In this document: positions 7,566 through 13,112 of the stretch, in pieces | Numbering within the stretch: position 1 is the stretch's first letter | Layout of the letters: every line of letters begins with the position of its first letter | DNA from: a virus | Direction: 5' to 3' (one strand) | Virus record (IMG/VR): IMGVR_UViG_3300034190_001436 | Coordinates: 1 to 33,648 of that record | DNA: 33,648 bases | Position numbers and translations under genes: made by a program | Notes under the pieces: generated by a model | Told to the model about the DNA's origin: nothing | Databases searched by the model: none | What the model saw: the letters and a program-made list of their open reading frames with translations, nothing else

Positions 7566-7784
7566 TTAATCTTCAGTATTCTGATAATTTTCTCGCTCTC
7601 GAACCTTGGTCATTCCCCGCTTTATTCTGCCAAAACCGACACATAATCCTGTGGGAATTTTCTGTATATGACCACCATTTTCTAAGAACTCCTTAACTTG
7701 TTGATTTAATTGGAATTGCAGTTCTTTTTTGTTTTCTTGAGCTCGCGGCTCATACCTACCTATGAAATTGAATTTCGTTTTCAT
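7566..7784 (-). CDS. Hypothetical protein (72 aa) with FLENGGHIQKIPTG motif
   Basis: ATG at 7784 lies inside the 3' end of the CHC2 gene (29-base overlap). Basic protein: a helical region (ENKKELQFQLNQQVKEFLEN) leads into GGHIQKIPTGLCVGFGRIKR and a charged tail. An FLxxGGxIxKIP motif recurs in small phage and plasmid proteins and may be part of a nucleic-acid-binding fold, but I cannot assign a function. The tight overlap with the primase-like gene and basic charge point to DNA metabolism. Confidence 0.6.
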   Translation of the reverse strand: MKTKFNFIGRYEPRAQENKKELQFQLNQQVKEFLENGGHIQKIPTGLCVGFGRIKRGMTKVRERENYQNTED

Positions 7785-11091: not shown

Positions 11092-11120
11092 ACTATAAGC
11101 GAATACCTACCCCTTGTCAA
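11092..11120 (-). promoter_or_regulatory. Strong sigma70-like promoter for the small-gene bank
   Basis: On the minus strand: TTGACA (11120-11115), 17-base spacer, TATAGT (11097-11092). An AT-rich stretch upstream (11121-11160) is shared with the promoter at 11746-11773, including AAATCTGTTGACA. Confidence 0.75.
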
Positions 11121-11158
11121 CAGATTTGTTTACACTTTATTGGATCATTTTGTATCAA

Positions 11159-11734: not shown

Positions 11735-11763
11735 CAATGGTTCCCATTCTACAGAAACCATTG
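11735..11763. promoter_or_regulatory. Inverted repeat flanking the -10 box (candidate operator)
   Basis: Perfect 8-bp arms CAATGGTT (11735-11742) and AACCATTG (11756-11763) separated by 13 bases that hold the -10 hexamer (11746-11751). A regulator bound here would block the promoter. Confidence 0.5.
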
Positions 11764-11773
11764 AGAGTGTCAA
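11746..11773 (-). promoter_or_regulatory. Sigma70-like promoter
   Basis: On the minus strand: TTGACA (11773-11768), 16-base spacer, TAGAAT (11751-11746). The sequence upstream is a near copy of that in front of the promoter at 11092-11120. Confidence 0.7.
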
Positions 11774-11797
11774 CAGATTTATTTACATTAATTAGCA

Positions 11798-11974
11798 TCA
11801 CTTTGTATCAACTACACGCTCTCTACCAATCGCCTCCTCTACAGCGTTGCAGTCCTGACACCACCAACGCCCGCGTACAAGGATTTTAGCGCCATCGGTT
11901 AATCGCGTATCTACACCAATTATTTCTCCGAGTATCCCGCCGCAGCGGCAGGGCTTCTGGCTTAGGTCTTCCAT
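11798..11974 (-). CDS. Small zinc-ribbon-like protein (58 aa)
   Basis: Start placed at ATG 11974, which has GGAG 9 bases upstream; the frame is open for 17 more codons. Cysteine pairs CRCGG near the N-terminus and CQDC about 32 residues later fit a zinc-ribbon knuckle pair, with a beta-hairpin between (ILGEIIGVDTRL, AKILVRGRWW). Such proteins often bind nucleic acid or a protein partner such as RNA polymerase; the actual partner is unknown. It is the first gene after the gene-free RNA-like region. Confidence 0.65.
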   Translation of the reverse strand: MEDLSQKPCRCGGILGEIIGVDTRLTDGAKILVRGRWWCQDCNAVEEAIGRERVVDTK

Positions 11975-12012
11975 TTGATTCTCCAAATAACAGGCAGCAG
12001 TGCCCATTTTCC

Positions 12013-12482
12013 CCCGCAAACACACCTACGGCATTAGGTGTTCTTACGCTCCTCGAAAGGAAGGCCGCTAGACCTGGTACTCATTGCGACGATCCACAGT
12101 GGTGAACCGCTCCCCCGCCAGACTTAACTGGAGGTTATTTCAACGCCTAACTCACGACCTGATTGTGTGTGTTTGCGGGTTCCTGTTGACATGGGCGGAT
12201 CAGCGCAGGAGTTTTAGGTCGCTTGTCTCTCACATTTCTGCGGCTAATTTCAGGGTCAGCTACCCATGAGCCAAGAGTACGTCTGGCTTTGCCTCACGGT
12301 CGGCACAAGACTTTGGGGGTTAGATGTTGCAGAACACAATATCTGGTGTAGAATATCCCTTGTCGGGTTCCTACTTTCCTTCCCCAAAGTCGGGATTAAG
12401 GGCTGCTAACCCACCGACATTTTTAATATTATCTCCCTTGAGCGAACTTAACAAGCCTTGGTTTTTTACAGGGCTTTTTTTT
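12013..12482 (+). ncRNA. Candidate large structured non-coding RNA
   Basis: About 470 bases without a credible gene on either strand. Visible base pairing: a perfect 13-bp stem closing the 5' domain (CCCGCAAACACAC 12013-12025 with 12167-12179), local hairpins (CACCTA/TAGGTG, CCAG/CTGG, AGCC/GGCT), and a stem 12361-12369/12408-12419 (TGTCGG/CCGACA plus GTT/AAC). A 10-bp long-range pairing joins 12309-12318 to 12382-12391 (GACTTTGGGG/CCCCAAAGTC). The last pairing would be a pseudoknot with the hairpin CCTTCCC/GGGATTAAGG. A rho-independent terminator on the plus strand ends the region. No plus-strand promoter could be identified, so the 5' end is uncertain. It is not tmRNA, RNase P or a tRNA cluster by their conserved sequences; I could not match GOLLD or ROOL from memory. 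Confidence 0.6.
12453..12482 (+). terminator. Intrinsic terminator, plus strand
   Basis: Stem AAGCCTTG (12453-12460) with CAGGGCTT (12469-12476), 8 bp including one G-U, 8-base loop, followed by eight T (12475-12482). There is no T-run in the minus orientation, so the terminator serves plus-strand transcription. Confidence 0.75.
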
Positions 12483-12518
12483 GCCTGTTGAGCTCTTCAC
12501 TTTGCATCATCTCAATAA

Positions 12519-13112
12519 TTAATGTTTCGGGCATCTGAACTTCCTCTCGTATAAACGCTTTCGGTAATTAAATATCTTTTTTACCCGCTTCAGGTAATCA
12601 ATGGTCAATTTTCGTGGATTATTATCCATTTCGAGCTTTTCTACTCGCTCTGCGCCTATCCTGGCTATAAGGCCCTTACGGTACTCTACGACGTTGCCTG
12701 AGAGATACCGATTGCATTTGACGCACTGACTATGGCAATTCAACAGATGATATTTTAGGTGGCTTGCTGAGCCCCGAGAGCGGTAGTGCCCGGCGTCAAA
12801 CTTGCCGCCCCGAACTGTATCGCCAGGCAAACATCCACAGCTTATGCACAATTTGTTTACATCCCTAATTCGGATGTAGCTATTGAATGAGGCCTGAGCT
12901 TCTTTGATGTAGTCGCCGGCAGTTTTGAGATTTTCCTTCTTCTCTCGAATGTCAGCCCTGATAGACTTCTGTGCAATCTTTTTAGCCGGGGCTGAACGGG
13001 TGAACTCGATCAGATGGTCAAACGAACAAAAGGCCTTGATGCCACCGATTACTACGTCGGACACTAAGACCTTCTTTTTGCAGAGAGCGCAGCGTCTAGT
13101 CTTTCCTTGCAC
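12519..13112 (-). CDS. ninG: NinG-like recombination endonuclease (Rap family)
   Basis: 197 aa from a GTG at 13112 that overlaps the upstream 50-aa gene by 17 bases. N-terminal zinc pair Cys8/Cys11 with Cys29 and a long basic linker helix, then an HNH-like core: Cys89-x2-Cys92 (CISCGC), FDAGHYRSRGS with His109, HLKYHLLNCHSQC with Cys126/His127, and Cys130/Cys133. C-terminal YRKGL and a basic tail. This arrangement is that of lambda NinG/Rap, which cuts branched DNA at Holliday junctions and D-loops. It complements the single-strand annealing protein encoded upstream. Motifs are complete. Confidence 0.85.
   Translation of the reverse strand: MQGKTRRCALCKKKVLVSDVVIGGIKAFCSFDHLIEFTRSAPAKKIAQKSIRADIREKKENLKTAGDYIKEAQASFNSYIRIRDVNKLCISCGCLPGDTVRGGKFDAGHYRSRGSASHLKYHLLNCHSQCVKCNRYLSGNVVEYRKGLIARIGAERVEKLEMDNNPRKLTIDYLKRVKKIFNYRKRLYERKFRCPKH

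Follow-up and report, generated by a model that had tools for sequence, protein, structure and literature searches.

A pseudoknotted minus-strand RNA with a putative convergent antisense RNA in an intergenic gap of marine phages

The gap and its relatives

The window (the whole stretch of DNA analysed, 33,648 nucleotides from an uncultivated marine phage) contains a gap of about 490 bases between a gene for a 58-aa protein (ATG at 11974) and NinG (stop at 12519). An earlier note, made from the letters of the window, had placed a large structured RNA here, and every sequence element that it listed was recovered in the gap: a 13-bp stem (12013–12025, CCCGCAAACACAC, with 12167–12179, GTGTGTTTGCGGG), a 10-bp long-range pairing (12309–12318, GACTTTGGGG, with 12382–12391, CCCCAAAGTC) and a plus-strand hairpin (12453–12476) followed by a T run, which has the 8 pairs claimed for it, although the label '8-bp GC' is too strong (4/8 pairs are G-C). 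Relatives were gathered from IMG/VR by NinG searches and DNA patterns, which yielded many homologous loci; the region is kept in more than 60 related marine phage contigs. The gap was also rightly described as holding no convincing gene, as no ORF is conserved and indels of 1–2 nt occur throughout the relatives; a protein-coding reading of the gap was rejected, every frame being broken by these indels. Single-sequence folding energy was by itself unremarkable (z −1.8 on the plus strand, −2.9 on the minus strand) and not decisive, so the case for structure rests on the homologues. In these, the 13-bp stem was retained via compensatory changes and the 10-bp pairing was found to covary. Rfam scans of the region, of the relatives and of a second module (B, see below) returned no family that passed its threshold within the RNA; at permissive settings the region returned weak, chance-level matches only, and weak matches to suhB/mmgR (19.3 bits) and freshwater-1 were noted. 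A large conserved structured RNA outside Rfam is thus borne out by the relatives and the Rfam scans together. BLAST searches with domain A against phages and plasmids gave no credible match, hence no isolate; those with B and three core-bearing loci against phages gave none either, and pattern scans for S and A in 85k genomes returned none (features in Table 1).

Replication genes (a helicase and a DnaG-type zinc ribbon) lie downstream of the minus-strand RNA. In many relatives the RNA separates a replication operon that runs leftward from an operon that runs rightward and carries NinG-like, ERF-like and exonuclease-like genes, the last two named tentatively from their sequence; the genes on the right are inverted in the window, so that the terminator of the S module faces NinG. 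In relatives (L133, L098 and L130) the genes flanking S on its right, NinG-like and HTH genes among them, are encoded on the other strand, which puts S in the middle of a divergent control region. In the window, the replication gene cluster ends with a gene (7566–7784, minus strand) whose 72-aa product carries a SutA RNA-polymerase-binding domain (Pfam PF20661, E 1.7e-8).

Table 1. Features of the gap and its first downstream gene (window coordinates)
Feature	Position	Strand	Remarks
Gene for a 58-aa protein (CxC and CxxC motifs), first behind the leader	11798..11974	−	Zn-ribbon-like; other genes in relatives
Domain A, helices P1–P12 and two pseudoknots	11993..12303	−	66 pairs, 92.9% paired
Pseudoknot P6, P5 loop GCCCAU (12196–12191) with AUGGGC (12007–12002)	12002..12196	−	Covarying pairs
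Predicted ~420-nt leader RNA made up of a 5′ hairpin domain, a linker and domain A, with the gene start behind it	12002..12420	−	Promoter, covariation; transcript predicted
Closing helix P7, CCGCAAAC/GUUUGCGG	12014..12178	−	The 13-bp stem; 95% paired
Hairpin P9, GCGGUUCAC/GUGGAUCGU	12089..12110	−	Invariant U-G pair (A-C on plus); 100% paired
Core hairpin P5, CCUGCGCUGAU..GUCAACAGG	12182..12209	−	Letters common to Rfam freshwater-1 in relatives
H-type pseudoknot P2/P3, GGG..CCC and GCUGA..UUAGC	12243..12265	−	Covariation
Long-range helix, CCCCAAAGUC (12318–12309) with GACUUUGGGG (12391–12382)	12309..12391	−	Covarying equivalents in most subgroups
Plus promoter, TTGCAG, 16 nt, TAGAAT	12327..12354	+	Predicted start near 12361
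5′ leader domain, GUCGG (12418–12414) with internal CCGAC (12393–12389) or distal CCGAC (12366–12362)	12361..12420	−	
Putative antisense RNA S, ~120 nt	12361..12482	+	Complementary to leader nucleotides 1 to ~60; promoter, terminator, fold; transcript predicted
Minus promoter, −35 TTGTTA (12454–12449), 17 nt, −10 TAATAT (12431–12426)	12426..12454	−	Predicted start near 12420
Intrinsic terminator of S	12453..12483	+	Overlaps minus promoter; hairpin and T run in most relatives

Anatomy and strand of the conserved RNA

The region splits into an A module and an S module (~12327–12483). In a MAFFT alignment of 27 A sequences, domain A (310 nt) showed 25 pairs with changes on both sides, and cells with two-sided changes numbered 113, against 38.2 (sd 5.4) in shuffles and 2–20 when the partners were slid. 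Two-sided changes were found in 3/8 pairs of P7 and in two pairs each of P2 and P3, whose cells were paired in 68% (P2) and 92% (P3). The two strands of P6 change together across loci (GCCCAU/AUGGGC, GCCCUU/AAGGGC, ACCCAU/AUGGGU, CCCCCC/GGGGGG and ACCCCG/CGGGGU).

Structure had been noticed correctly in the earlier note and most of it had been placed on the wrong strand: the structure of domain A belongs to the minus strand, which is that of the genes, and not to a single plus-strand RNA of ~470 nt. RNAalifold consensus energies for domain A were −69.5 on the minus and −48.7 on the plus strand (−49.2 and −37.8 with more diverse sequences). Read on the minus strand, the non-Watson-Crick cells of domain A comprise 125 G-U against 34 A-C, a ratio that is biased because the helices were partly picked on that strand; the invariant U-G pair in P9 and the wobbles of the 5′ leader domain are less biased tests. 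In the latter, GUCGG pairs with CCGAC, CUGAC, CCGGC or CCGAU in 48/49 unique cores, where the search expression admitted such pentamers only and failed in one core only, and all 17 variants are wobbles on the minus strand and would be A-C mismatches on the plus strand.

In some relatives domain A is replaced, behind the same S, by an unrelated module B of ~280 nt, which is likewise on the minus strand and pseudoknotted (L007–L022 and L104–L122, e.g. L021:3879-4159:+). Module B has 10 pairs with two-sided changes and 27 such cells (6.9 in shuffles), some of these counts being conservative as L130 and L151 are partly misaligned; its consensus energies were −91.0 on the minus and −70.8 on the plus strand (−69.0 and −47.0 with divergent members). 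A motif CCRAAGGCAAURCAA is repeated in B beside the gene start. By an S-only scan, A, B or a distant A variant adjoins S in every S locus whose contig is long enough (that of L131 ends within the locus); the S cores differ among loci and the arrangement is constant. In two contigs (L126+1769 and L145+3713) S is followed by a domain which was unmatched by the A and B profiles and has A-like 3′ letters (GGGAGAAAA); this domain could be a further type beside A and B, or else a remote form of A.

Predicted convergent promoters and the long-range helix

The plus promoter had been regarded as missing. It was located at TTGCAG (12327–12332), 16 nt and TAGAAT (12349–12354), and is conserved in the relatives, its −35 box being weak in the window. 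Scored with a simple sigma-70 matrix, both promoters were present at a fixed distance from the S hairpin in 63/63 testable loci, with mean scores of 9.9 (minus) and 10.1 (plus) compared with 3.0 (sd 2.7) in shuffles, and on each strand the best score in the ~200-nt region fell on the promoter site in 53/63 loci; these 63 loci are not independent, many being related, and their box sequences nonetheless differ widely. Because the plus promoter is downstream of the 13-bp stem, both that stem and the left arm of the 10-bp pairing would be missing from the plus transcript. As first proposed, the plus strand is predicted to give a separate transcript that ends at its own terminator, with a length of only ~120 nt and a start near 12361.

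The convergent promoters start at opposite ends of one hairpin domain, and both predicted transcripts open at the same stem (UGUCGG). Within this 5′ domain a GGG/CCC pairing covaries; a few relatives (L161, L173) have a reduced form. The long-range helix overlaps the local arm and the internal CCGAC of the hairpin domain and is an alternative conformation of it. Its position is constant within subgroups and its letters change together, as in GACTTTGGGG/CCCCAAAGTC, ACTTGGTAA/TTACCAAGT, TGACTCAAGA/TCTTGAGTCG, TGACTAGAAGT/ACTTCTAGTCG, TCGATTGAAAA/TTTTCAATCGG and GACTAGA/TCTAGTC; at 7 bp or longer it was found in 56% of loci, against 20% with shuffled and 31% with swapped sequences, an overall significance that is modest. 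As the plus RNA would start downstream of the linker, the long-range helix can form only in the minus RNA. The leader thus looks bistable, the 10-bp pairing competing with the hairpin domain.

Interpretation and comparison with known systems

On balance we favour, from sequence, the reading of the gap as an antisense-controlled leader RNA of an early or replication operon. The minus operon would start in the gap and run via the Zn-ribbon-like gene toward the helicase and primase genes, its promoter giving a ~420-nt leader composed of the bistable 5′ hairpin domain, a compact multi-pseudoknot domain (A or B) and the first gene, while the convergent plus promoter would give the ~120-nt antisense S ending at its own terminator. 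Without S, the leader arm (12391–12382) would pair with the linker (12318–12309) before A and the leader would fold as a whole; with S bound, the arm would be held in an RNA–RNA duplex, the long-range helix would be blocked and the leader would be switched or destroyed. S would be expected to rise with phage copy number and so to throttle the operon or the leader, a negative control as in plasmid copy-number systems, where antisense RNAs throttle copy number; by analogy, a two-fold leader and an antisense RNA over one switching strand would be the logic of those systems. Control would most likely act on the whole transcript.

Five observations weigh against this. The A core is also seen in other phages, where no S-like partner was recognised, so control by S is not intrinsic to the core; terminator-like sites are not enriched downstream (9 found, 13.7 expected); downstream genes have their own promoter-like sites (11773–11746 and 11120–11092); the −35 box of the plus promoter is weak in the window; and the 5′ domain is reduced in a few relatives. 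Antitermination by the leader RNA is possible, the same terminator count standing against it. The strong promoter-like sites TTGACA-16-TAGAAT and TTGACA-17-TATAGT (window 11746–11790 and 11092–11140) each follow a shared plus-strand sequence, CAACAGATTTRTTTACA, which, ahead of these small-gene promoters, is possibly an operator.

A replication primer of ColE1 type, in which the leader, as an analogue of RNA II, would hybridise to the template and prime phage DNA synthesis and S, as an analogue of RNA I, would stop priming, is considered unlikely. Its geometry is present (a structured leader, a short convergent antisense RNA over the 5′ end and an alternative pairing), the helicase and primase genes downstream would supply the rest of such a system, and no known initiator family was found among the window proteins scanned; a precedent exists in pSYSA, where replication is under the control of a ColE1-like asRNA/mRNA pair next to a primase-helicase gene (PMC9978351). 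Against it, GC skew at four-fold degenerate positions does not switch at the site (which is not decisive), RNAI (RF00106) gave no match at E ≤ 10 in the region with permissive filters, and elsewhere the core is found beside genes for a portal protein, thymidylate synthase, an exonuclease or unclassified proteins.

Those other settings bear also on a second reading of similarly low probability, that A or B is a trans-acting noncoding RNA (a scaffold or an RNA–protein particle, GOLLD/ROOL-like) which is cut from the operon transcript and whose amount is limited by S. By pattern scan, the letters of core hairpin P5 are present in at least 120 viral contigs with unrelated gene contexts, and structural conservation is very high, as would suit such an RNA; processing signals are not known, no terminator follows A, and a gene start comes directly after it.

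The position in a 5′ UTR would allow a cis-regulatory element of the next gene (a riboswitch or a translational switch), and in the window subgroup the 3′ strand of P6 (12002–12012, minus strand) holds an AUG after GGGGG, in frame with the 58-aa gene, which folding of AUGGGC could hide. In L124, L133 and their kin, the subgroup with a long insert, this strand reads AAGGGC and that start codon is absent. The first gene after A or B, which in most loci starts at the 3′ end of the RNA or up to ~50 nt beyond, falls into no fewer than six groups that are unrelated to one another (Zn-ribbon-like, helicase and several uncharacterised families); as the RNA stays while this gene varies, it is not a switch for one gene, and such an element is quite improbable. 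A single ~470-nt plus-strand noncoding RNA, for which the plus terminator and the strand symmetry of Watson-Crick pairs might speak, is hardly credible given a plus promoter downstream of domain A, the G-U asymmetry, the invariant U-G in P9, the wobble-only variants of the 5′ stem and the consensus energies.

Beyond the marine group, P5, its loop pseudoknot P6 and the closing helix P7 also occur together in phages with unrelated flanking genes (e.g. L175:3668-3824, L176:8196-8441, L177, L178:5544-5712, L211 and L221), where the genes downstream include those for a portal protein, thymidylate synthase, a RecE-like exonuclease and unclassified proteins. The first four of these combine the pseudoknots CCCCCC/GGGGGG, ACCCCG/CGGGGU or GCCCCG/CGGGGC with wholly different P7 helices. 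Of 53 independent unique loci without a recognised S, 33 combine P7 and the pseudoknot (together 11 bp or more) with an [AG]AA linker, compared with 0% for shuffled and 4% for swapped partners; in the window P7 and the pseudoknot amount to 15 bp and the linker is present. Over all core loci P7 occurs with 51 different strands and the pseudoknot with 43, and the consensus is a hairpin CCUGCKCUGWC..GWCAACAGG with a loop pseudoknot, a closing helix and a purine/A-rich linker. A different phage (L165) has the core hairpin with a weaker pseudoknot (4 bp); this AT-rich contig also encodes a 1076-aa terminase-like protein (L165:2748-5978) with, by eye, an apparent intein. These loci may represent an unrecognised and widespread phage RNA class with a fixed pseudoknotted core, carried in many lineages beside unrelated genes and having one common job in infection, to which the marine group would add antisense control and the swap for the unrelated, pseudoknotted B.

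To our knowledge, few large structured phage RNAs are known and most of them are without a function. The anatomy of the present RNA can be tested, as it comprises two promoters, a switch helix, a defined antisense RNA and two covariation-supported pseudoknots, and with its core in many phage contigs a single well-designed assay could give the whole class a function. It is unusual for one antisense module to be followed by either of two pseudoknotted RNAs that are unrelated to each other, which suggests that the same job can be done by different folds.

GOLLD and ROOL resemble it as large ornate RNAs in phages, and their Rfam models gave no match in the window. Closer in its letters is freshwater-1 (RF02979), a family that presumably derives from environmental sequences: its hairpin CCUGCUCUG..CAACAGG is identical in relative L161 and differs by one letter in the window (CCUGCGCUG). 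It may be a fragment of the core class, although its best score was 15.8 bits (in L161) against a threshold of 72; its model is 62 nt long and the alignment shows no counterpart of P7/P6. It gave no match in the window and none at threshold in 20 core-bearing loci, and a search of 10 virus records for the family found none, as did the control. HK022 put is a structured RNA of ~65 nt at the start of a phage early transcript which acts in cis, without an antisense partner and without pseudoknots; the likeness lies in a structured RNA that starts a phage transcript, and the difference in the lack of terminator enrichment downstream here. In leader antisense systems such as CopA/CopT (IncFII) an antisense RNA covers the leader of an operon with replication genes. 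That arrangement (CopA/CopT is covered in PMC5415839) is similar to the one proposed here, except that conservation does not extend to the first gene here and that a 310-nt multi-pseudoknot domain is part of the leader. As in ColE1 RNA I/RNA II and pSYSA ssr7036/asRNA1, the locus would combine a structured transcript with a shorter antisense RNA that converges on its 5′ part, and it shares with them the alternative pairing and the neighbouring replication genes, the convergent promoters and the complementarity (12361–12420) being present here as sequence. The two starts are ~60 bp apart, compared with 108 bp in ColE1 (PMC9978351) and 304 in pSYSA; a pseudoknotted core is not described in those systems, and the transcript here would be a phage operon leader directly followed by genes.
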